This document shows positions 8,500 through 26,950 of a DNA stretch of 45,692 nucleotides, piece by piece (position 1 is the first letter of the stretch; every line of letters begins with the position of its first letter). The DNA lies in IMG/VR virus record IMGVR_UViG_3300036770_003106, positions 1 to 45,692 of that record; one strand, written 5' to 3'. The position numbers and the translations under genes are program-made. The notes under the pieces are model-generated. The model was not told the DNA's origin, searched no databases, and saw only the letters and a list, made by a program, of their open reading frames with translations. This DNA is from a virus.

Positions 8500-9003
8500 T
8501 CAGTCCCAGGGGTTTGCTGAAGCCGCCGGTGCCCGACTCGGCGCGGAGGCTTTAGGTGCGGCGGCCTTGGGCGCAGCGGTCTTGGGGGCTGCGGCGGGGG
8601 CTTCATCGCTGAACAAGAACGCTTTGATCTTGTTGCTCGCTTTGTAGCCGTTGCTAGCGGGCTCGATCGAAATCGCCGCCCGGAAAGGTTTCTCGAGCAG
8701 CTTGTCGGTGTCGTCGGCTTCGGGCTTGCCGCATGCCGTGGCCCAGGCGACGAGCTGCTGACGGCCGATGCGCTGCGCCTTTTCGCTCGGGTTGTTGATG
8801 TTGAAGTTCTGCCACAAGAGGCGGCCCGCATGTTCGCCCTTGACGACTTCAAACTTCGCTTTGATGTACGACCCGGTTCCGGCGCTAGTGGCTTTTTCCT
8901 CAGCGTCGAGCGCTTTCAAAATGTATTCACCCTCGGGAATGGGGTCATACTCGGCGGGGGCGGAAACATCAACTTCTGAACTATCAAATCCAAACTTTGC
9001 CAT
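8500..9003 (-). CDS. DUF669 family protein, possible ssDNA-binding protein
   Basis: A 167-residue protein of the DUF669 type: the N-terminal domain (about residues 1-110) carries the conserved IPEGEYILKALDAEEK, LWQNFNINNPSEKA and GRQQLVAWATACGK blocks. A low-complexity Ala/Pro/Lys linker (residues 134-160) leads to an acidic tip ending in NPWD. That layout (folded domain, flexible linker, acidic tip) resembles SSB proteins. DUF669 genes usually sit beside Sak4-like ATPases and exonucleases in phage recombination modules, as here. The ATG has a strong AAGGAG ten bases upstream. DNA binding is inferred from layout and neighbours. Confidence 0.78.
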   Translation of the reverse strand: MAKFGFDSSEVDVSAPAEYDPIPEGEYILKALDAEEKATSAGTGSYIKAKFEVVKGEHAGRLLWQNFNINNPSEKAQRIGRQQLVAWATACGKPEADDTDKLLEKPFRAAISIEPASNGYKASNKIKAFLFSDEAPAAAPKTAAPKAAAPKASAPSRAPAASANPWD

Positions 9004-9021
9004 GATAAGGGGCTCCTTTAA

Positions 9022-9786
9022 TTAAGCGGCAATGGGGATGAGTTTTTCGAGATTCTCAATCTTCATCTCAATCTCGTCAGGACAACCGTAACGGTTCTTT
9101 GCGGCATAGGCGGGATTCTCAACAAAGTGCAGCAGCCGCTCGCCGGTCGTCACGCCTCGGGTCTTTTGATTGTTGAACCCGGTGTCAGACTTGCGGATGA
9201 TGACTTTGAACGCCGCGAACGCTATGACGTCCGCCCACTCCTGCAGCAGCGCGTTGCAGCGGTTGGGGAGTTTGGGCTGATAACGGTCATACGGCTCGGT
9301 GCGAGGGTCTTCGAACTTCACCACCGCCGCATGCGCAATCAGCACCACGTTCATCCCGCGCTTGAGCCGTAGCACGTCTAGCCCCTGCAGGATCTCACGA
9401 AACTCCTCCGCGACGAGCATCTGCCCCTTGCCGTAGGCGAGGTCTTTAGCCTCATGCGAGGACTCCACATTGCTCACGATGAGCGGCTCAATCAGCCAGT
9501 CAACCGAGTCAACAACCACGGTTTTGAACTGATGGTCTTCTTTGATCAACGTCTTAATGCTATCAACCACGTCGCTGATTTTCATCGCTCGGGGAAAGCT
9601 CGTCACGTCTAGCGAGTCGAGACCGTCCTCGGTGCTAATGAAAATCGGGCTCGGAAACTGGCTAGCGAGCGTCGACTTACCTATCCCGTGACCGCCGTAA
9701 ATGACGAAACGCGGCGGAACGGCTTGCTTACCCCGGCGCAGCGTGTCCTGCCAACTGCTGGGGGCGGGTTGCTTCTCTTTTGACAT
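9022..9786 (-). CDS. Sak4-like RecA-fold ATPase (AAA_24 type)
   Basis: A 254-residue P-loop ATPase. Walker A is GGHGIGKST (near residues 31-39) and Walker B is TVVVDSVDWL. RecA-like sensor features include VVLIAHAAVV. Phage proteins of this type (Sak4 group) assist single-strand annealing with a partner SSB; the DUF669 gene next door is the likely partner. The start is the ATG at 9786, preceded by AAGGAG; a longer frame reaching 9864 would run into the neighbouring gene and lacks a ribosome site. The C-terminus (VENPAYAAKNRYGCPDEIE) is the usual end of this family. Confidence 0.85.
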   Translation of the reverse strand: MSKEKQPAPSSWQDTLRRGKQAVPPRFVIYGGHGIGKSTLASQFPSPIFISTEDGLDSLDVTSFPRAMKISDVVDSIKTLIKEDHQFKTVVVDSVDWLIEPLIVSNVESSHEAKDLAYGKGQMLVAEEFREILQGLDVLRLKRGMNVVLIAHAAVVKFEDPRTEPYDRYQPKLPNRCNALLQEWADVIAFAAFKVIIRKSDTGFNNQKTRGVTTGERLLHFVENPAYAAKNRYGCPDEIEMKIENLEKLIPIAA

Positions 9787-9814
9787 TTTGTTTCTCCTTT
9801 CTGAGTAGAGGCGG

Positions 9815-10186
9815 TTAGTCGTCCGCCGTTGCGAAATCGTCGTAGTCCTCGGCACCCTGCCCAAAGTCCCACTGATGTGTGATGTACTGGAACAGTTCGC
9901 GGTCCCAGCTCAAGAGGTTCAACTTGTAGTCCTGCTCGGTGACCAGCGCGGCGCATATGGCGCATAGCGACGGATCCCCAACCATCAGCAGGTAGTCCCC
10001 CGGCTCCCATTCGCTCAGCACCCGCCGCGCTTTAGCGATCATCATGCGAGTGTTGTACGGTTTGCGGGGGCGGCTAAACACCGCCCTCAGCTGACCGAAG
10101 CGCCGGGCGTCGCTGAGGTCTTTGCTGTTGTCGACCTGAACGACGAATACGGTGCGGGTGTTACCGGGTTGTTGTGATGTTGTCAT
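9815..10186 (-). CDS. Conserved phage protein of unknown function
   Basis: A 123-residue acidic protein starting at the ATG at 10186, with AGGAA upstream, and overlapping the end of the polymerase gene by 26 bases. The sequence has a TVFVVQVDNSKDLSDARRFGQL strand-helix start, then YNTRMMIAKARRVL, YLLMVGDPSLCAICAALVTE and a tail rich in Asp (EDYDDFATADD). I have the impression that similar proteins are common next to replication genes of environmental phages. The fold could be a small alpha/beta domain. No catalytic residues can be named. Linkage suggests a replication or recombination accessory role. Confidence 0.65.
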   Translation of the reverse strand: MTTSQQPGNTRTVFVVQVDNSKDLSDARRFGQLRAVFSRPRKPYNTRMMIAKARRVLSEWEPGDYLLMVGDPSLCAICAALVTEQDYKLNLLSWDRELFQYITHQWDFGQGAEDYDDFATADD

Positions 10187-12011
10187 TTTTGCGTTTCCTA
10201 GGTTGTTTAGGCGGCGGAGCGATGAGCGCGAGCTCTTCGGGAGTAAGATAGCTTTCGCAACCCACCGCCACTGCGATCTTGATAGCTTCTTTTCGATACC
10301 ACGTGTAGTCGAGATCAGCCGGGTGTTTAACAAAGTCCTCCACGGTCATGCAGGCTCGGGCACCGTCGGTCTTAGGCACTTTGTTATTGTTCTTGAGGTA
10401 GCGTATCGGCTCGAGCGCCGGGTCGTTTGATTGATACCACCGCACCACGCGACCCAAGTATTGCCCCGCCTGAGCGCCGCCACCCGTGACGTTACGCGCT
10501 GAGATGAAATCGCGAAACGGCGCAGCGTATATCGTGTCGAGCAGCGGGGTGCCTCGGGCCAACCACTGCCCCACGGCATCGGCGCAGACTTGCGCGGTGG
10601 GGTTTTTCTTGAGCGACAACGGCGCGTAAATACCTTTAACTTTTAGCGAACGGTCAGGTTTGACGGCGATGTAATTGTTGACGTCCTTTAGCGCAAGAAC
10701 ACGGTACGGCGTAAACTCGAACACAAACCGCGAAACCTCGCTAAAGCGACCGATGACTTTCTGAATCGTAGTCTCAAGCGACGCGTGATACCGAATAGCG
10801 ATTCCGTCGGTGTTGGCTGAGAGCGTCACAGCCCCCGCGAGCTCCAACCACTCGATGAGCATCAGCAACGTAAACTGACCCGTAAGGGTAACAGCCAACA
10901 TCAGGTCCGGCGAGTACAACACCGAGTATCGGCTAGCGAGTTTGCCGAACGTGCCGTTCAAAGAAATCTTGAGCGTCTCGCCCGTAGTCTTATCGCCAGA
11001 ACGCTTGGCTTCTAGCCGCCGTTCGTAGATCTTACGATACTCGCGTACGAAGTCCTCACCGAGCCCAGCAGGCACAAAACCGCACTCCAGAATGATACTG
11101 GGGTAGAAGCTAGCGGCGTCAATATCACAGATGACGTCGACCCCCGCAACGTGACAAACTTTTCGGTCATGAACACTGTGTATACCCCCCACGCCGAGTT
11201 GATACTCCCCGTGGCCGAACGGGATAGTGGTGTGCCCTAGGAACTCAGGCAGGACAACGTGCCCGGTACTGGGGTTCATCTCGAACGTGTGCGCCGCCAC
11301 GCGCTCAAGAAGCTGTTGAAGTGCCGCGTCTTGGAACTTCAAGAACTTAGGCGGTGTATAGCGCACGCTCTTCGGCACTTCGTTTTCGCGACGCTCGAGT
11401 CTCATGCTGCTGATATAAGCCTGCTCGGCCATTTGGGAATCGGACTTGCTGCGCATGTCGGTTCCATAACGCCGGCTCATCTCAACGCGCAGCAACACTT
11501 CTTTCTCAAGGTGCCGTAGAAGCTCCGCCGTGGTTTCTACGTCATTGTGGCAGTATTCTAAAAGAACCGTCTCCTGCTCGGGACGTATCAGGTCGTTATG
11601 GTGAATGGGCAAGTCTTGGAGCCGGGGCATATGCATCCGCGCCCCGTAGGCCTTTAGGCTTACGAATGACGGGGCTACCTCAATGAGGTCAATCCAATCA
11701 AATCGCACTTCGGGCAACATAAACTTACGCATCGCGGCCCAAGGCGCTAGGCGGTTGCTGATGATATCGTCGGCGATGCGTTTGATTTCAGCCTCTGTGC
11801 GGGTGTTGCAGAACGCCGCCACAATGATGTTGTCGAACTCCCGCGAGTTGAACCCTACAAACGTACCCCCAGAGGTGAGCAGCTTTTTGAGTCGCGCAGG
11901 AGCCTCTGGCTCGTGACGCCAAAGGTCGAACCACTCGCCGGTGTCTACGTTTTTGGCGCAGAACAACGTGCGGTTTCGGTAAGTCTCAGTATCAAACACC
12001 CAAGTGCTCAT
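10161..12011 (-). CDS. Family B DNA polymerase with 3'-5' exonuclease
   Basis: A 616-residue replicative polymerase. The exonuclease domain shows Exo I (D7, E9 in FDTET), Exo II (GFNSREFDN, residues 53-61) and Exo III (YCHNDVETT, 153-161). Polymerase motif A is DIDAASFYPSII (296-307) and motif B is TLKISLNGTFGKL (346-358). Motif C reads SANTDGIAI (398-406), so the usual YxDTDS is replaced by NTDG with one acidic residue kept. The length is that of compact viral family B enzymes. The ATG overlaps the stop of the upstream gene (ATGA), which indicates translational coupling. Confidence 0.88.
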   Translation of the reverse strand: MSTWVFDTETYRNRTLFCAKNVDTGEWFDLWRHEPEAPARLKKLLTSGGTFVGFNSREFDNIIVAAFCNTRTEAEIKRIADDIISNRLAPWAAMRKFMLPEVRFDWIDLIEVAPSFVSLKAYGARMHMPRLQDLPIHHNDLIRPEQETVLLEYCHNDVETTAELLRHLEKEVLLRVEMSRRYGTDMRSKSDSQMAEQAYISSMRLERRENEVPKSVRYTPPKFLKFQDAALQQLLERVAAHTFEMNPSTGHVVLPEFLGHTTIPFGHGEYQLGVGGIHSVHDRKVCHVAGVDVICDIDAASFYPSIILECGFVPAGLGEDFVREYRKIYERRLEAKRSGDKTTGETLKISLNGTFGKLASRYSVLYSPDLMLAVTLTGQFTLLMLIEWLELAGAVTLSANTDGIAIRYHASLETTIQKVIGRFSEVSRFVFEFTPYRVLALKDVNNYIAVKPDRSLKVKGIYAPLSLKKNPTAQVCADAVGQWLARGTPLLDTIYAAPFRDFISARNVTGGGAQAGQYLGRVVRWYQSNDPALEPIRYLKNNNKVPKTDGARACMTVEDFVKHPADLDYTWYRKEAIKIAVAVGCESYLTPEELALIAPPPKQPRKRKNDNITTTR

Positions 12012-12265
12012 CTGTCTTGATTGGTGTAGCTGGAAGTAGGCTCAGCACCTTCGGACTGCTCAGTGTGTCGAGCGATCTCGATATATTTCTCAAGGAAGTG
12101 TTGCGCTTTAAGCAGGTCCGTGAGACCGTTCTTACGTTTCCAACGTGTTACATACTTAGTGATCTGGCCCTGAAAGTAGTCAAGGTCGTTAGCGACGACA
12201 TAATCCCAATGCTGAATGCCTGAACGGTAGTGTGAGCCGGCGACTTGTTTTTCGTTAGCGCTCAT
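12008..12265 (-). CDS. DUF3310 protein
   Basis: An 85-residue protein with the DUF3310 signature: VAGSHYRSGIQHWDYVVAND followed by YFQGQITKYVTRWKRKNGLTDLLKAQHFLEKYIE. The family is widespread in phages, often called nucleotide kinase-like without proof, and lies near nucleotide metabolism and replication genes. The start is the ATG at 12265 with AAAGGG upstream; the frame extends further but without a ribosome site. It overlaps both neighbours, by 11 bases upstream and by ATGA with the polymerase. Confidence 0.82.
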   Translation of the reverse strand: MSANEKQVAGSHYRSGIQHWDYVVANDLDYFQGQITKYVTRWKRKNGLTDLLKAQHFLEKYIEIARHTEQSEGAEPTSSYTNQDR

Positions 12266-12749
12266 AACGTAACCCTTTAATGGTGTTGAAAAGGTCAAGC
12301 TCACGCCCTACCAAAATTAGCTCATGGGCGTAAGCAACATAACGGTCGTGGACTTCGAGCATCCGCCGGTTGCCGAGCTGAACCTCGCGTAGGCAAAACA
12401 CCGCCCCGTGAGCTATGTCGGCGAGCTTGAGCGTGCGCTGATCGCAGGCGTTGAGCTCGGGGTACGCGATTCCGGCATCGAGCATTAGCCGCCGCTCGAG
12501 TTTATCAACTTGATCGCCTATGCCGTATTCGCGTTTCGCCGGTGAGGGGATGTCGCCCGTGTGCTGCTCGGCGAGATCATGAAACAGCGCAGCCAAAATC
12601 AGCTGGCGGCTAGCGTCCGGGTTCAGCAGTAGAGTAAAACACGCAACACCATGCGAATGGTGACCGACGGTTTCGTTTTGCAGCGTTGTGAGCGTGTGAA
12701 AGCGTTTGACTTCGCTTCCGTTAATGATGAACTGAAGGGTTTTTCTCAT
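12255..12749 (-). CDS. HD-domain phosphohydrolase, YfbR-like 5'-nucleotidase
   Basis: A 164-residue HD enzyme. The metal-binding residues are visible in HHSHGVACF, LFHDLAEQHTGDIPSPAK and LKLADIAHGA. YfbR-type enzymes remove the 5' phosphate from deoxynucleoside monophosphates. In a phage that may replace thymidine, such an enzyme could drain dTMP or another competing dNMP; that is inference. It lies between the TS-family gene and the DUF3310 and polymerase genes. No strong ribosome site is seen before the ATG. A 72-base gap with a possible promoter separates it from the TS homologue. Confidence 0.84.
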   Translation of the reverse strand: MRKTLQFIINGSEVKRFHTLTTLQNETVGHHSHGVACFTLLLNPDASRQLILAALFHDLAEQHTGDIPSPAKREYGIGDQVDKLERRLMLDAGIAYPELNACDQRTLKLADIAHGAVFCLREVQLGNRRMLEVHDRYVAYAHELILVGRELDLFNTIKGLRYER

Positions 12750-12791
12750 TTCGGTAGTCTTGAGTTAAAAGTTATAAAGCTAGAGTATAAA

Positions 12792-12819
12792 AGTATAAGC
12801 CGCATTTCCTGAAACGCAA
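12792..12819 (-). promoter_or_regulatory. Possible leftward promoter before the HD and polymerase genes
   Basis: On the minus strand TTGCGT (12814-12819) and TATACT (12792-12797) are separated by 16 bases; a second TATACT copy lies at 12784-12789. This is in one of the few gaps of the leftward operon. The -35 match is weak, so the call is tentative. Confidence 0.3.
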
Positions 12820-12821
12820 AA

Positions 12822-13811
12822 TTAGCGTCTCCGAGCCGCTTCGCGTCGCTCAACCCAGTCCATAGCAGCGCTGCGCCAGTCGGTAGCACGAACCGAAGCT
12901 GCCTCAGCCCGGCCAGTCTCTCCTGCTCGCCGAGCCGCACTGACCATAGCCATCGGGCGGGCGACTTCGCTCAGGAAAGTGTTACGGTACGGGTTGTTAG
13001 CCAGCGGGTCAACGCAGAACCACTCGCATTCGTAAAGGAACAGTTGCGGGTCCGGCTCGGTCATCAGCGGGCGTGGTGTAACCATTCCCCGCCAGTAACG
13101 ATCAAAGTCACCGGCCTGGGGCGGTAGCGTAATGTACTGGTCAGCTTTGTAGAGATTGCGATAAAGGTGAAGATTCGCGCTCACTTGGCGGTAAACTCCT
13201 AATGGAACCTGAAGTGCTGTGGCGACAAACTCCTGCAGCACGCTAAAGTGAACAACATTAGCACCAAGCGCACCCCACCAGATGTCGTTGCTACGGTTCA
13301 GCACGGTCATGTCGAGCTGCCCGGCTTGAGTTTCAAAGATCACTTGCGTGTTGCAGGCTTTGTCGTTGGTTGTCCTTGTAAGATCGGCAGCGTCCCAGAT
13401 CTGCACCACCGCCTGACGACTTCGGGGGTCGCGACGTAATACGTCTATCACTGCGAGCAATTGGTCAAAGCCGAAGTGCCGACGCCATCGGTAACCGTAT
13501 GCAGCGTTAAACGTTACGCCGTCGTCGCTGTATTGCCGGATGCGGCTGTTAAACCGCTCCAGAAACGCGACGTCATTGCGCCCCGCCAACATCCAAATCG
13601 ATTCCATCAAATGGAAGATCGGATTGGCGTCGCGCCCTTCGTGGAACAATACGCGCTCTTGAGGCTTGAGGTACGTGATGATGAACGTATCGGTAAAAGT
13701 AATTGCCGGACCGTTACGCGTATTGCGCTCGTGTGTAGGATACGTGCGGAGCTTCCAGAAAACCTCCGCGAAGGCCTCGTTGACGTTCGTTGCGGTGATT
13801 GTGTAGGCCAT
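12822..13811 (-). CDS. Thymidylate synthase homologue, probable dUMP hydroxymethylase
   Basis: A 329-residue member of the ThyA family. C153 in KACNTQ is the nucleophile; NRSND (172-176) binds phosphate; N185 in WWGALGANVVHFS aligns with the base-contacting Asn that favours dUMP over dCMP. Blocks such as MESIWMLAGRNDVAFL and SDDGVTFNAAYGYRWR match phage TS homologues found in operons with 5-hmdU DNA kinases rather than cellular ThyA. In those phages the enzyme makes 5-hydroxymethyl-dUMP. The start is the ATG at 13811 with AAGGAG ten bases upstream, 4 bases after the previous stop. Plain TS activity cannot be excluded from sequence. Confidence 0.8.
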   Translation of the reverse strand: MAYTITATNVNEAFAEVFWKLRTYPTHERNTRNGPAITFTDTFIITYLKPQERVLFHEGRDANPIFHLMESIWMLAGRNDVAFLERFNSRIRQYSDDGVTFNAAYGYRWRRHFGFDQLLAVIDVLRRDPRSRQAVVQIWDAADLTRTTNDKACNTQVIFETQAGQLDMTVLNRSNDIWWGALGANVVHFSVLQEFVATALQVPLGVYRQVSANLHLYRNLYKADQYITLPPQAGDFDRYWRGMVTPRPLMTEPDPQLFLYECEWFCVDPLANNPYRNTFLSEVARPMAMVSAARRAGETGRAEAASVRATDWRSAAMDWVERREAARRR

Positions 13812-13815
13812 GGTT

Positions 13816-14733
13816 TTAGAACTCCTTTTCGGGCTTGTAACGAGTTTTAGGCACACCCTCTCCAACCACAGTGCGTGCATACTTGCTGTATTCGCACATG
13901 ACGTTCTGCACATCATGAAGTGTGAGGTCAGTAATATCGAGCTGGGTTTCGATTGCGTTTTTGATCTCGATCAGTTTCTTGTTGAACTGGACTTGGTTCC
14001 AAGGCATCGTTGACTTACGACCCGTAAGATAGTTGAGCCCTTTAGTGCTGCCGGGGCCGATCGGAGCGTATGTGTAGAGGTCTTCTGCCGTGCCGAGCTG
14101 TTTTTCGGTATAGGTGAGGTCGGCAGCAACCTGCCCGGCCATAAACGTACTTAGCCCAAATGAAGCCGACAACGTGCTTACAAAGTTCTCGATGCGTGGC
14201 CGCTCGTAGTTCAGCTCTTCGATCAGCTGAGCATTGAGTTCGATAGCCGGTTCGATGATGTGCCGCGCCAATGCAAGACTTTTTATCCCGGCAGGTTCTT
14301 TGTTGGTAGGGTAGACCATATATGCCCCACCGTAAATCTTATCAACCTTGCGGCGATACGCTTCGATAAGGGCACTAAACACCTCGGGTGAAAACTTCTC
14401 AGGCGACACGGGTAACATTTTCTCGTAAACCAACACGCGCAGCGTAGGTGGCCAGTTGATCAGCCGCGCTATCAAAAGCGTAAACCACAAATCTGGCCGA
14501 TCGGCGTCAGGTTCTATGATGTGTTTGATGATCCATTTAGACACTCGGTCATCACGGCGGCGGATGTTCGTAAACTTGTAATCGCGCAGGGTGGGGTCCT
14601 CGGTCCATGGGGGCGGCAGTTTGTTTTCACGTGAAATGCGGATTACCTCTCGCTCCCAAACAAAATACAGCAACCCTTCGATTGACGCGATTTTATCGGC
14701 GGTGGGCGGCCCGTAGGGGCAGTCTTCGATCAT
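13816..14733 (-). CDS. HMUDK helical-domain / aGPT-PPlase-type DNA base hypermodification protein
   Basis: A 305-residue protein. The N-terminal block (residues 21-70) reads LLYFVWEREVIRISRENK, PPPWTEDPTLRDYKFTNI and RRRDDRVSKWI. This is the signature of the family described by Iyer and Aravind as alpha-glutamyl/putrescinyl thymine pyrophosphorylase, also named the 5-hmdU DNA kinase helical domain. It is usually encoded with, or fused to, the 5-hmdU kinase and helps build modified thymine. The ATG overlaps the stop of the kinase gene (ATGA), so the two products are made together. Its exact reaction is not settled; the family assignment is strong. Confidence 0.8.
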   Translation of the reverse strand: MIEDCPYGPPTADKIASIEGLLYFVWEREVIRISRENKLPPPWTEDPTLRDYKFTNIRRRDDRVSKWIIKHIIEPDADRPDLWFTLLIARLINWPPTLRVLVYEKMLPVSPEKFSPEVFSALIEAYRRKVDKIYGGAYMVYPTNKEPAGIKSLALARHIIEPAIELNAQLIEELNYERPRIENFVSTLSASFGLSTFMAGQVAADLTYTEKQLGTAEDLYTYAPIGPGSTKGLNYLTGRKSTMPWNQVQFNKKLIEIKNAIETQLDITDLTLHDVQNVMCEYSKYARTVVGEGVPKTRYKPEKEF

Positions 14734-15296
14734 GCTTCGAACTCCTCGAAAATAGTCATCAGCTGAGGGTGAGGGTCAGCGTAGTCAATGAGTCGCACGT
14801 CGTAACCCGCATTGCGTAAATTTTTGTAGCAGTTCACTACCGAATGGAACTTTTCGACAAGATTCTTAGGGTCGAACGGTTTTTCGTTACCGGCAGTCAA
14901 GCGACGCTGTTTGACGCGCTCAATACACAGCTCGAGCGGTGTGTTCATAAACGCATATACCGCGCAGCCTGTGGGGTGCACGGCTTGGGTGACTTGTCCG
15001 CCTAGTCCGCTGTTGGAGACCAACGCCCCTTCGTAAAGCACATGTCCTAATGGGTGAGCTTTCAACACGCGCTGAGCTATTTCAGCTTGAGTTTTGATCG
15101 CGTCAGTGCCGCCGCAAACATTGTCATATTTGCCGATGACGTAAACCGGGGTGCGTAGGGTGGGAACGTCTACACGATAGCCGGCTATCTTATCTTTGCT
15201 CATTAACGCCTCAGCGCCGTAGTCAAGAAACCGCCTAACGGCTGTGGTTTTACCTGAACCGAACGTGCCTGATATGCGCAAGATGACATTTCGCAT
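14730..15296 (-). CDS. 5-hydroxymethyl-dU DNA kinase (HMUDK)
   Basis: A 188-residue P-loop kinase. Walker A is GTFGSGKT (10-17). The segment GKYDNVCGGTDAI (55-67) and YEGALVSNS match the phage 5-hmdU DNA kinases, which phosphorylate the hydroxymethyl group of 5-hmdU in DNA so that an amino acid can be attached. The C-terminal half has the usual kinase LID-like RVKQRR and the FEEFEA end. It lies upstream of the helical-domain protein with ATGA overlap, and 21 bases downstream of the transferase gene. Ordinary nucleotide kinases lack the CGGxD block, so the specific call is favoured. Confidence 0.82.
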   Translation of the reverse strand: MRNVILRISGTFGSGKTTAVRRFLDYGAEALMSKDKIAGYRVDVPTLRTPVYVIGKYDNVCGGTDAIKTQAEIAQRVLKAHPLGHVLYEGALVSNSGLGGQVTQAVHPTGCAVYAFMNTPLELCIERVKQRRLTAGNEKPFDPKNLVEKFHSVVNCYKNLRNAGYDVRLIDYADPHPQLMTIFEEFEA

Positions 15297-15317
15297 GTTA
15301 GTTTTCCAGTTGTTTCG

Positions 15318-16322
15318 TTATAAAAAGTGTTCAGCGCGATAGGGCTGACCTGTAGTTGGAAATATACGCGCTTTTTCTTTCAAAGACAATCGCTTTGTTT
15401 CACATTCAGCGCGTAACCATTCAGGCAGCTCCAGACTACGTATGTCTTTGAACACCGCCGTGACTTCGCTCAAACCTCGGGCATCGGCCCACTCGATACG
15501 CTCCCAAGCCATATCGGCGTAAACGCCGGGGTAACGCCGCCCGAAGAAATGATTTTTAAATGTGCACAAGTTGCTCTCGAGCGTAAAGTTATTTACGTTC
15601 GGAATGTCATGGTTCTGTTCAGAAAAGTCAAAAAGAAGGTTGTCAGCCTCTCGACTCATCCACGTGCACATCCCTTCAAAGTTGAAATAGCTGCCGTCAA
15701 AACCGTTGCCCGCTCGCTTGTCCCAGACTAACTGGTCGTTACCCGTTAGAAACAACATACCGTTACGATGGGAACGGCTGCCTGATTTGTCGCTGAAAAG
15801 CAAGTCATCGCAGTCAGCCCCGAACCCGTTTAGGTAAACGTACTCGAGGTAAGAAAACGACGATAGTCGCCCAAACGAGTGGTATCGTCCTCGCACCAAC
15901 GCCCACAACTCGGCGTAGGTTTTTCCGCTGAGCATGGCGGCTTGCGAACCGCCGTGTTCAGCAACAAGGTTGGCGTAAGTTCGAATGGCTTCAGGGGTGT
16001 GTGTTTTCTGGTATCGCCGGTCGGTATCAAACTGTAACCGGTCCCACTCTGAATTAAACCAGTCGCTGAACTGCGTCAGCTTTGCATCAGGGGGTGGGAC
16101 TGACGGGAGACGTTTCGCAAGACTTATTGAAGTTATAGGGTTTTGCGTAAGACCATTTAAAAACGCAAACCAAAGACGCTGCTCAGCATCCCAATCGTAA
16201 CGTCGCGCCAGCTCCGGCATGTACAGGTATACCAACCCCGGCATCACACCGTAAGTCAAGTTCAGACCGTAGAGTTTGTCGAAATATTCGCGGCGGTTTT
16301 CCCGCAGTCGGTAATCGTTCAC
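15318..16322 (-). CDS. aGPT-PPlase2-type amino acid:DNA transferase candidate
   Basis: A 334-residue protein. WFAFLNGLTQNPITS (51-65) and FSDKSGSRSHRNGMLFLTGND (176-196) match blocks I associate with the aGPT-PPlase2 group. In phages ViI and M6 members of that group act as amino acid:DNA transferases, replacing the phosphate of phosphomethyl-dU with an amino acid. The start chosen is the GTG at 16322, which overlaps the stop of the upstream small gene as GTGA; a GTG four codons earlier is possible. It is likely co-translated with the kinase and helical-domain genes. The group is recognised from motifs only, with no alignment, and the amino acid used cannot be read from sequence. Confidence 0.7.
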   Translation of the reverse strand: MNDYRLRENRREYFDKLYGLNLTYGVMPGLVYLYMPELARRYDWDAEQRLWFAFLNGLTQNPITSISLAKRLPSVPPPDAKLTQFSDWFNSEWDRLQFDTDRRYQKTHTPEAIRTYANLVAEHGGSQAAMLSGKTYAELWALVRGRYHSFGRLSSFSYLEYVYLNGFGADCDDLLFSDKSGSRSHRNGMLFLTGNDQLVWDKRAGNGFDGSYFNFEGMCTWMSREADNLLFDFSEQNHDIPNVNNFTLESNLCTFKNHFFGRRYPGVYADMAWERIEWADARGLSEVTAVFKDIRSLELPEWLRAECETKRLSLKEKARIFPTTGQPYRAEHFL

Positions 16323-16474
16323 AGCAGCCCCCACCCGAAGTTAAACAACGCCGACATGACGCGGCAAAACGCTCCGGCCAGAACTGTACCCGCCGCGATA
16401 AGCGCCACCCAACTCAACAACCAGAGGGCGAAAAACCCTCCGCTGTCAAAAACGCTTCGACTACGACGGTTCAT
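16319..16474 (-). CDS. 51-residue membrane peptide inside the hypermodification operon
   Basis: A short gene encoding 51 residues, starting MNRRSRSVFDSGGFF and ending NFGWGLL. The start is basic (three Arg in the first six residues), followed by a hydrophobic helix (about residues 14-37, ALWLLSWVALIAAGTVLAGAF) and an aromatic amphipathic end. The ATG overlaps the upstream stop (ATGA) and its TGA overlaps the GTG of the transferase gene, so it fits exactly between two genes and leaves no spare bases. That tight fit is the main evidence that it is real. It could be a holin-like or membrane-anchoring peptide; the function is unknown. Confidence 0.65.
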   Translation of the reverse strand: MNRRSRSVFDSGGFFALWLLSWVALIAAGTVLAGAFCRVMSALFNFGWGLL

Positions 16475-16950
16475 TTTGGAGTTCCTGATAAGCTGACGAG
16501 CTCAAACGAACGTCCGTTAATTTGAACCGTAGCCGGCTCGTTGGCTTTAGCTGCGGTATAAAGCTGTCGCGTTAAACGGTTTAACTGACCGCTACTCATC
16601 CAATCAGGATGAGCGCGGCGCATCCTCAAAGCGTTTTCCCAGACTTCGCCGGTTTCGATACAACGCACTCTTCGATCGGGCAGCCGTAATGAGTCACTCA
16701 TTGCAGGGCGTTTTACGTTACTAGAGGGGCGACGTTCCTTGGCTTTTACAACTTTGCCTGCAACTGACACTTGAAGTTTGTCCCACAACTCACGACAACG
16801 GTCAACGGCTCGCTGACGGTCTGAAAACGCCCGTACGCGGCGCTCAGCATACTTGTTGTGAAACTCGATGAGCTGCTCGATTGAGGCGGTCTCGAGCCAC
16901 GCGTAAAGTGATTCGCTAGTTTCGGTTTGATGGGGTTCGATGTTAAGCAT
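16471..16950 (-). CDS. Unknown early protein
   Basis: A 159-residue basic protein. The N-terminal half is helical and charged (LIEFHNKYAERRVRAFSDRQ, AVDRCRELWDKLQ); the middle is a Lys/Arg-rich linker; the C-terminal 60 residues (RCIETGEVWENALRMRRAHP, GQLNRLTRQLYTAAKANEP) look like a small helical DNA-binding-type domain. The start is the ATG at 16950, which has AGGAG nine bases upstream; a TTG eight codons earlier is less likely. It precedes the small membrane gene with an ATGA overlap. I do not recognise a named family. Confidence 0.6.
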   Translation of the reverse strand: MLNIEPHQTETSESLYAWLETASIEQLIEFHNKYAERRVRAFSDRQRAVDRCRELWDKLQVSVAGKVVKAKERRPSSNVKRPAMSDSLRLPDRRVRCIETGEVWENALRMRRAHPDWMSSGQLNRLTRQLYTAAKANEPATVQINGRSFELVSLSGTPK

Positions 16951-16970
16951 TTCAGTAATCTCCTGTGGTT

Positions 16971-17189
16971 TCAAAATGGTGCTTCTTCAAAATCTTCGAC
17001 ACTTGGGGGTGACTTGGGGGTGGGCACGGCTTTTATTTGCGAGATGTGGAGGACGACCCACTGCGGAAATGGCCAGTTGTTCTCTTGATTGATGAGCCTC
17101 ACTGAACACCCCCCGTCAGCGTGAACTGCCTCCAGCACGCCCAGGCCTGAAGGCGTCATCACACGATCGCCTTGTTGATGGTAACGCAT
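16971..17189 (-). CDS. Small KOW/SH3-like protein
   Basis: A 72-residue protein. GDRVMTPSGLGVLEAVHADGG followed by SVRLINQ and WVVLHISQI gives the alternating hydrophobic pattern of a small SH3-like barrel. This fold is common in nucleic acid or protein contact domains. The tail is acidic (SVEDFEEAPF). The ATG lies four bases after the preceding gene. The fold is inferred from pattern; the role is unknown. Confidence 0.55.
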   Translation of the reverse strand: MRYHQQGDRVMTPSGLGVLEAVHADGGCSVRLINQENNWPFPQWVVLHISQIKAVPTPKSPPSVEDFEEAPF

Positions 17190-17192
17190 CGT

Positions 17193-17384
17193 TCAAACCC
17201 TTTCAACGACGTACTCAACATCGAGCGGAGCGTCAATAGCTGAGAGATATTCTTCGACGGCTTCTTGCTGCGTAGCGCCATGACCCACCGGGTCGCCGGG
17301 TTCGTAATCAGGGCCAAAGGCTGTCCAATCAAAGCAACGCACTGGAACCGGCGGCGTAACGTGTAAAGTTAAAATTTTAATCAC
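17193..17384 (-). CDS. Small unknown protein
   Basis: A 63-residue acidic protein with LTLHVTPPVPVRCFDW at its start and the acidic helix TQQEAVEEYLSAIDAPLDV near its end, a layout common in small phage proteins. The start chosen is the GTG at 17384, which has GAGAGG eight bases upstream and overlaps the previous gene by 8 bases; another GTG lies five codons earlier. The function is unknown. Confidence 0.55.
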   Translation of the reverse strand: MIKILTLHVTPPVPVRCFDWTAFGPDYEPGDPVGHGATQQEAVEEYLSAIDAPLDVEYVVERV

Positions 17385-17655
17385 GGCGAAACCTCTCACT
17401 CAACAAATGTTGAACCTCGGTTCGGATCTCTTCGTCTTCGGCCCAGGTGGCTTTGGCGGCTAGCTCGGGAGACAACTGGCCGTCTTCATCAAGCACGTGC
17501 CACTCGCAGTCAAACCAGCCGTGGTAGTCAAGGTCGCTGGCGGCGTTGTGGCTGAACGTGCCGCGTACGCTCTCGTAGGACAACACGCCAATGGTGCACG
17601 GAACACCGCCGATGCGGTGCTCGAACGTGAGGAGGTACTTGTTCGGGGTGGTCAT
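17377..17655 (-). CDS. Unknown early protein
   Basis: A 92-residue acidic protein. The ATG has GAGGAG eight bases upstream. The sequence alternates short strands (YLLTFEHRIGGVPCTIGVLSYE) and aromatic loops (DYHGWFDCEWHVLDEDG), then a charged helix (EEIRTEVQHLLSERFRRD). This looks like a compact alpha/beta domain. No family is recognised. Confidence 0.6.
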   Translation of the reverse strand: MTTPNKYLLTFEHRIGGVPCTIGVLSYESVRGTFSHNAASDLDYHGWFDCEWHVLDEDGQLSPELAAKATWAEDEEIRTEVQHLLSERFRRD

Positions 17656-17660
17656 TTGAG

Positions 17661-17846
17661 TTACTCCTCGACGGTGACTTCAAGCTGAGCAGCTTCGATC
17701 GCGTGCTTCAGAGGCCACACCGCTAACCAGGCTTCGGCCTGCAACGCGCCGACGTACTGTGGATCTTGAAACGTTTTCATGCTTGCTTTTTCGATCTTGC
17801 TGAGCACTTCGATCACTTTAACGAGTTGACTGAGTTGTACTTTCAT
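17661..17846 (-). CDS. Small helical protein
   Basis: A 61-residue, mostly helical protein starting MKVQLSQLVKVIEVLSKIEK. The ATG has AAAGGA upstream within the recurrent CTCAA-rich leader of this operon. It could form a small helical bundle. The function is unknown. Confidence 0.5.
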   Translation of the reverse strand: MKVQLSQLVKVIEVLSKIEKASMKTFQDPQYVGALQAEAWLAVWPLKHAIEAAQLEVTVEE

Positions 17847-17878
17847 TTTGAGTTCCTTTGAGTTGTTGAGTTAGATTG

Positions 17879-17897
17879 AGGGGGCGGTTGACCCCCT
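17879..17897 (-). promoter_or_regulatory. Intercistronic G/C hairpin
   Basis: AGGGGG (17879-17884) pairs with CCCCCT (17892-17897) around a 7-base loop, between two small genes of the leftward operon. No T-run follows on the minus strand, so it is not a classic terminator; mRNA processing or stability control is possible. Confidence 0.5.
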
Positions 17898-17908
17898 TGA
17901 AATGAATC

Positions 17909-18241
17909 TTACCTTGAAGTTACTTTTACGGCAAATACGGCGGAAACCTTGGTGTTCTCGGCGACAAGATTGTTGATGACGCTTTTGATGTCGACCTGAG
18001 GGTTCTGCTGCTGGATGAGGTCAGCGAGCACCGTTACGATAGATTTGTAGTCAACGCTTGCGCGGTTGCTCTCGCTGTACGTTGCTTTGAACAACACACC
18101 TTCAATCACGCGGGGGCCGCCGGCACTGGCGGCTTCTTTGATTTGAGCTTTGATTTCCTCAGCACGGGCCTCGAGGTTCTTGATCTCAGCGAGCAACGCG
18201 CCGAGCTGGTCAACACTGGTGAGTTTAAGATCGTTTAGCAT
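17909..18241 (-). CDS. Unknown protein with N-terminal coiled coil
   Basis: A 110-residue protein. Residues 7-40 form a heptad-like helix (SVDQLGALLAEIKNLEARAEEIKAQIKE), then a strand segment (VIEGVLFKATYSESNR) and a second helical part. The ATG has GGAGAA upstream in the usual leader of this operon. I recall similar proteins next to replication modules in many phages, without a known function. A role as a small host- or nucleic acid-directed factor is possible but not shown. Confidence 0.6.
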   Translation of the reverse strand: MLNDLKLTSVDQLGALLAEIKNLEARAEEIKAQIKEAASAGGPRVIEGVLFKATYSESNRASVDYKSIVTVLADLIQQQNPQVDIKSVINNLVAENTKVSAVFAVKVTSR

Positions 18242-26038: not shown

Positions 26039-26950
26039 TTATCGTAAATCTCTTTTATCGTTCCAATCGCGTTGGCTATCGACGGGTATATCTTTCACGG
26101 CATCGTGTTGAGCTTGGATGATAGCGTCAGAACCAACGTTGATGAATATAGCACCGGGTGCTGCATACTGTTCGAAACTCTTCCAACACTTAGCATCATA
26201 GTTTACGGTGGAGTCGAACGGCGGGCGCAGCTCTTCGGCTACCGGTTTCAGGAACGGCAACGCAGATCCAATGATCTTTGCGTGGCCGATTTCGCCGGGT
26301 TGCATGTTTCGCGCAACCGCGATGCCTTTGCATTTAACATTCGGCCAAGCAATCTGAAACGCCCGGATAGCGGTGCCCGTCGAAACGCTCATCCAGACTT
26401 CGGTAGGGTCACCGCCGATTTGTTCGCTGATTTGAGCAGCCAGCTTTACAATGCCTGCGGTCACTAACGGTGCCTTGGACAAACCGGGCGGCAAGTACTC
26501 AGCACCGTGTTTTTCAGCCCATGCTTTTGCCCAACCGTTCAGGTTCGGCATGCGGACGATCTTGGCGAATCGCAGCTCAGCACCATGGTAAAGCAAAGCA
26601 CGTTGGTGCACCGACGGCTCTTTGGCTGCAGGGCAAAAGAAAACACATTTCTTGCCGTACAGCTTCCCGAGCGTGGCAATCGCGTTGGGGGCCATGCCGG
26701 CCCGAGGTGCTACGTAAACGAGTTTGTCGCTCTGGGTTTGTGCGATAAGCTGCTCGGCTCCATAACCTTTGAGGCTGATCTGGCTCAAATCGCCTCGAAA
26801 AATCCAGCGATTGCCGTGCGAGGTAACGACTGGCGGCGTTAGTTTAGACACGAACCCGCTACTCATCGACAAGTAATGTTCGCGTGCTCGATGCACGTCC
26901 ATTCCGGGCGGCATATCGCGGTTGGTGCGGTCTTCGGTTACTGTGAACAT
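26039..26950 (-). CDS. Fold-type II PLP-dependent enzyme, candidate hypermodification decarboxylase
   Basis: A 303-residue enzyme of the TrpB/ACC deaminase fold. K61 in LSQISLKGYGAEQL is the likely PLP lysine; PRAGMAPNAIATLGKLYGKK (82-101) is the asparagine-loop equivalent, with Asn at 89; SVSTGTA (188-194) is the phosphate-binding loop. PLP enzymes of this kind occur in phage thymine hypermodification systems, where one type removes the carboxyl group of the amino acid fixed to DNA. It lies 9.6 kb upstream of the kinase-transferase cassette in the same operon. The ATG has GGAG nine bases before it. A standalone amino acid enzyme is the main alternative. Confidence 0.72.
   Translation of the reverse strand: MFTVTEDRTNRDMPPGMDVHRAREHYLSMSSGFVSKLTPPVVTSHGNRWIFRGDLSQISLKGYGAEQLIAQTQSDKLVYVAPRAGMAPNAIATLGKLYGKKCVFFCPAAKEPSVHQRALLYHGAELRFAKIVRMPNLNGWAKAWAEKHGAEYLPPGLSKAPLVTAGIVKLAAQISEQIGGDPTEVWMSVSTGTAIRAFQIAWPNVKCKGIAVARNMQPGEIGHAKIIGSALPFLKPVAEELRPPFDSTVNYDAKCWKSFEQYAAPGAIFINVGSDAIIQAQHDAVKDIPVDSQRDWNDKRDLR

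Follow-up and report, generated by a model that had tools for sequence, protein, structure and literature searches.

The window, the whole 45.7-kb stretch of viral DNA analysed here, carries a gene of the thymidylate synthase (TS) superfamily within an operon of predicted DNA-modification genes. A sequence-only reading had located the TS gene at 12822-13811; these coordinates are right, but the plus-strand frame is broken by stops, which rules it out, and the gene lies on the minus strand, with its ATG at 13811, a stop codon ending at 12822 and a coding part (12825-13811) specifying 329 aa. Upstream of TS lie genes for a P-loop kinase with its helical partner and for an amino acid:DNA transferase, downstream those for an HD nucleotidase and a DNA polymerase; a further candidate enzyme is encoded some 10 kb away:

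10161..12011, minus strand: phage DNA polymerase (phrog_1252), downstream of TS, with gene order as in M6
12255..12749, minus strand: HD-domain, YfbR-like 5'-deoxynucleotidase, adjoining TS in almost every relative
12822..13811, minus strand: predicted dUMP hydroxymethylase of the TS superfamily with 329 aa: nucleophile C153, D150 as the Asp for water activation, N185 as the Asn for uracil selection, and R173-S174-N175-D176
13816..14733, minus strand: putative 5-hmdU DNA kinase helical partner (PF18723 HMUDK_hel, 146.6 bits; homologue of M6 gp55, 33%)
14730..15296, minus strand: putative P-loop 5-hmdU DNA kinase (PF18748, scoring exactly at the Pfam cut-off; 34% to PaMx11 gp49, 29% to the ViI kinase)
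15318..16334, minus strand: putative amino acid:DNA transferase of the ViI/actinophage class (PF18724; predicted fold matching the PaMx11 gp46 glycinyltransferase)
26039..26950, minus strand: PLP-dependent enzyme of PALP fold, candidate tailoring enzyme (PF00291), confined to the window's lineage

The record has no terminal repeats, and most of its longer near relatives measure 50-61 kb; the window is thus probably a fragment of a phage genome. A DNA-level search of positions 9000-18000 against named phages returned zero matches, and the phage is a member of a large uncultured group related to Yuaviruses. The nearest named homologues of the 329-aa protein, which matches Pfam family PF00303 (1e-21), belong to Yuaviruses and related phages (M6, YuA, Bordetella FP1), with 45-47% identity over 98% of the length; those of M6 and YuA are annotated as thymidylate synthase/deoxyuridylate hydroxymethyltransferase.

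The active-site residues of the TS superfamily are all aligned in the window enzyme (C153, R132, R173, S174, D176, H215 and Y217). The catalytic cysteine closes a D150-K-A-C153 motif, and an aspartate at this -3 position is found in all 85 distinct relatives as well as in SPO1 gp29, M6, PaMx11, ViI and T4 gp42, whereas leucine takes its place in E. coli ThyA (Leu143) and in the T4-like Td of KpV477. In the dCMP hydroxymethylase of T4, the aspartate three residues before the catalytic cysteine, a leucine in thymidylate synthases, activates the attacking water, and the C-terminal tail of thymidylate synthases is lacking (PMC6400193). The ThyA tail is also absent from the window enzyme, an unrelated extension standing in its place. 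The position of E. coli W80 is occupied by Ile91 (a methionine in M6 and SPO1 and an alanine in ViI), and that of ThyA R127 by Gln133, as in SPO1 and ViI.

One position of these enzymes holds Asp when the substrate is a cytosine nucleotide and Asn when it is a uracil nucleotide (PMC5175136; PMC6400193). N185 of the window enzyme aligns with E. coli N177 and is invariant in the 85 distinct relatives, which bears out the earlier argument that its retention favours dUMP over dCMP. The same reading had leaned on the one-residue shift of WWGALGAN (residues 178-185) against ThyA; the shift is a real insertion, found in every dUMP-type phage enzyme examined, those of M6, PaMx11, SPO1 (gp29), ViI, Montesquieu and Serratia 2050H1 among them, but it only marks the dUMP-hydroxymethylase clade and is not itself decisive for the chemistry, to which D150 is the better guide. 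Across the 85 distinct relatives, RSND, W178, G180, GAN, D150 and C153 do not vary and W179 is kept in 84; the motif pattern is thus not due to chance. A second part of the hydroxymethylase signature, a Ser or Thr two residues before the active-site Tyr (S94/Y96 in T4), has been proposed from the dCMP enzyme (PMC6400193). The window enzyme has A103 and Y105 at these places, the residue equivalent to A103 being Thr in MilA and Gly in M6 and PaMx11; since the Ser/Thr is missing from enzymes of known 5hmdU phages too, it is taken as unneeded for uracil enzymes, and this part of the signature may be specific to cytosine enzymes.

Phylogeny, proposed by the earlier reading as a check with SPO1, ViI, M6 and ThyA, places the window enzyme with the 5hmdU phages and outside methylating ThyA. 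In a 40-row tree, it clusters with the SPO1, M6, ViI and phiW-14 enzymes (96/92) and methylating ThyA forms a separate clade (100/99); the grouping is kept when the very long T4 branch is left out (96/87), and an AU test rejects a topology in which the window group is forced together with methylating ThyA (p = 0.00175). The DNA of M6, ViI and SPO1 contains 5hmdU or 5hmdU-derived bases (PMC6449724). D150, C153 and N185, the missing ThyA tail, the shared insertion, the place in the tree and the AU test together give good support to the assignment: the window protein is very probably a dUMP hydroxymethylase, and the earlier view of a hydroxymethylase distinct from cellular ThyA holds. An ordinary methylating thymidylate synthase, serving only to raise the supply of dTMP, would account for the PF00303 membership, for the retention of most ThyA active-site residues and for matches to several NCBIfam ThyA models, although these score far under their cut-offs; it is nevertheless very improbable, as Leu143 of E. 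coli ThyA is replaced by Asp150 and W80 by Ile, the C-terminal tail is gone, the AU test speaks against it and the neighbouring genes are 5-hmdU-specific. A dCMP hydroxymethylase of the T4 gp42 type, deriving the modified base from cytosine, would fit the best PDB match, the CMP hydroxymethylase MilA (5b6d), and the Asp before the cysteine common to the window enzyme and T4 gp42, but is scarcely credible given the invariant N185 where T4 gp42 has Asp, the clade of uracil enzymes in which the protein falls, the downstream-pathway genes acting on 5-hmdU and the absence of a glucosyltransferase among the window proteins scanned. As the neighbours of the predicted dUMP hydroxymethylase resemble enzymes specific for 5-hmdU in DNA, the locus indicates a modified base derived from uracil and not from cytosine.

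The same signature positions can be read in other named phages. The "thymidylate synthases" of Stenotrophomonas phage A1432 (L182:322-1209) and Achromobacter phage 83-24 (L178:403-1263) carry Asp where E. coli ThyA has N177, and Asn three residues before the cysteine; they are probably dCMP-type enzymes, perhaps dCMP methylases. That of Lactobacillus phage ATCCB (L181:424-1233) has both the cytosine and the hydroxymethylase signatures and adjoins a beta-glucosyltransferase gene, so this phage probably has a T4-like glucosylated 5hmC system.

The genes accompanying TS form a predicted thymidine hypermodification set (PF18748, PF18723 and PF18724), and the kinase subunits and transferase keep the same order upstream of TS in most related contigs. 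PF18748 and PF18723 are both named for the 5-hmdU DNA kinase. The sequence-only reading had spoken of adjoining kinase genes; there is one P-loop kinase, at 14730-15296, and the gene next to TS encodes its helical partner, not a second kinase. The label "terminase small subunit" given to the 5-hmdU DNA kinase in PHROGs (phrog_800) and in the M6, PaMx11 and ViI records is a widespread misannotation, affecting 14730-15296 here as well as L001:9710-10273 and L006:38203-38865. The HD 5'-deoxynucleotidase would remove competing dNMPs such as dTMP.

A structure model of the transferase, built from 38 homologues (pLDDT 92.6), finds 8z2m/8z2n as its sole match in a Foldseek search of the PDB (prob 1.00, TM 0.54/0.62, although with an E-value of only 0.012); the PDB title of 8z2m names the glycinyltransferase (gp46) of PaMx11 acting on 5-PmdU (5-phosphomethyl-dU). 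In a tree of the transferases, the window protein groups with actinophage proteins and with ViI, the latter on a long branch, and a 100/100 split divides this group from the M6/PaMx11/phiW-14 class; a BLAST comparison with M6 gp51 gives no match, and membership of the M6/PaMx11 class is ruled out by both. A separate cassette (L146:300-5700) combines both transferase classes with a P-loop kinase, a ViI-like PALP and genes of ParB-like and TGT/DpdA-like type; TS and the helical partner were not found within 10 kb downstream of it.

The main departure of the window from its relatives concerns the PLP step. In 58 of the 67 informative relatives, a PALP resembling ViI orf226 is encoded upstream of the transferase, mostly as its direct neighbour, and the A1 profile recovers it from 26 of 36 records and, as a remnant, from G028. 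Neither the window nor its near sisters give a hit with this profile, and a search for a remnant upstream of the window transferase gave none. Instead, the window (26039-26950) and several close sisters have a different PALP, some 10 kb upstream and confined to this lineage; that of the window exceeds the Pfam cut-off for PF00291. Window-type and operon-type PALPs never occur at one locus in the records searched, as expected if one had replaced the other. A C-terminal motif, Y(D/E)xKxW...F(W/I)x(V/I/L)G, is common to the window PALP, M6 gp52 and ViI-like PALPs and, among 3242 ORFs, occurs in PALPs only. The nearest named relatives of the window PALP are domains of ParB-DNA methyltransferase fusions in Erythrobacter phages R6L and ZS04; a profile comparison with ViI-like PALPs, from shallow alignments, gives no match, and the structure model of the protein reaches a pLDDT of only 35.5. 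Taken together, distribution, Pfam match and shared motif make it likely that the PLP step has been replaced by the other PALP in the window's lineage. Radical SAM genes (PF04055) are absent from the window, which may be incomplete, and from 28 related contigs, and the 60.8-kb sister contig lacks one too; the same search finds one in M6.

The remnant in G028 (11010-11090; L074/L107) is a decayed copy of a ViI-like PALP, 27 codons of which remain upstream of the transferase. The 101.8-kb record IMGVR_UViG_3300047121_000347 (L019/L026) carries the whole locus twice, with a ViI-like PALP in one copy and a window-type PALP in the other, and looks like two related phages joined.

A pathway can be proposed from these genes. 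C153 would attack C6 of dUMP and methylene-THF would give its methylene to C5; water activated by D150, and not hydride, would then add to the exocyclic methylene, releasing 5-hydroxymethyl-dUMP and THF. Once phosphorylated to 5-hmdUTP, the product would stand in for part or all of the dTTP during polymerisation. The kinase pair (14730-15296 and 13816-14733) would then act on the DNA, phosphorylating the 5-hydroxymethyl group, and the ViI-class transferase (15318-16334) would exchange the phosphate for an amino acid. The amino acid used is Gly for M6 and PaMx11 and Ser for ViI, and the PLP enzymes of M6 and ViI are decarboxylases. As far as 5-hmdU in DNA and its phosphorylation, the proposed pathway follows the scheme published for M6, ViI and phiW-14 (PMC6449724). 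A PLP enzyme, probably the unlinked PALP at 26039-26950, may finally trim the attached amino acid. The first assignment, from dUMP to 5-hmdUMP, is the only firm one, as predicted from the residues and the tree; we infer the chemistry of the individual steps, the identity of the amino acid, the part played by the distant PALP and the final base.

An amino-acid-derived thymine hypermodification is a probable product, and trimming by the distant PALP stands at an even chance. Somewhat short of even is the possibility that the phage stops at the amino-acid adduct, with no decarboxylation, and that the PALP has another role. The 57.5-kb sister contig G003, in which neither kind of PALP was found, is consistent with such a stop, as are the distance of the window PALP from the operon, its kinship with fusion domains and its lack of a profile match to ViI-like PALPs; against it stand the mutual exclusion of the two PALP types, each at its own locus even in the joined contig, and the C-terminal motif that the window PALP has in common with M6 gp52. 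Under the proposed pathway, the final base has a likelihood of roughly one in three of being 5-NeOmdU as in ViI, the alternatives being the untrimmed amino-acid adduct or another product. That the lineage gave up the ViI-like PLP enzyme and took on an unrelated one (26039-26950), with the result that its DNA has a hypermodified thymine unlike 5-NedU, 5-NeOmdU, 5-NmdU and putrescinyl-thymine, is rather doubtful.

Base hypermodification is a known phage strategy to hide DNA from host nucleases. The locus extends thymidine hypermodification to a large uncultured group of Yuavirus-related phages with a different finishing set; as the PLP step is present, lost or apparently replaced among close relatives, the question of which gene decides the final base becomes testable. 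Such bases shield phage DNA from many restriction enzymes (PMC6449724).

In comparison with known systems, the SPO1 gp29 and M6/YuA enzymes share with the window enzyme the Asp at -3, the Asn at the base, the one-residue insertion and the lack of a ThyA tail, whereas the window enzyme belongs to a separate clade of uncultured phages. Yuavirus loci likewise have an HD protein, DNA polymerase, kinase and helical partner adjoining TS, and the M6 cassette for 5-(2-aminoethyl)dU (gp51-gp58) has TS, kinase gp54, helical partner gp55, HD protein and polymerase in the same order. However, the M6 operon also includes a glycine-class transferase and, between transferase and kinase, the PLP enzyme gp52 and the radical SAM enzyme gp53, all three lacking in the window operon. 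The PaMx11 glycinyltransferase gp46 (8z2m) resembles the window transferase in predicted fold, with 15% identity and membership of the other class, and the FAD enzyme and acetyltransferase with which its cassette continues are not seen in window-related loci. The set of ViI (Kuttervirus) for 5-(2-aminoethoxy)methyl-dU comprises TS, kinase orf67, transferase orf247 and PALP orf226. It agrees with the window group in transferase class (29% identity to the window protein), in that no radical SAM gene was found in that group, and in the orf226-like PALP of the window's relatives; it differs in that the ViI genes are scattered and the window's own lineage has a different PALP in place of the orf226-like one. 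The window cassette, as judged from its predicted genes, is thus a mix of a Yuavirus-like core and a ViI-type transferase with no radical SAM gene, a further combination of known parts in which the PLP gene is apparently swapped.
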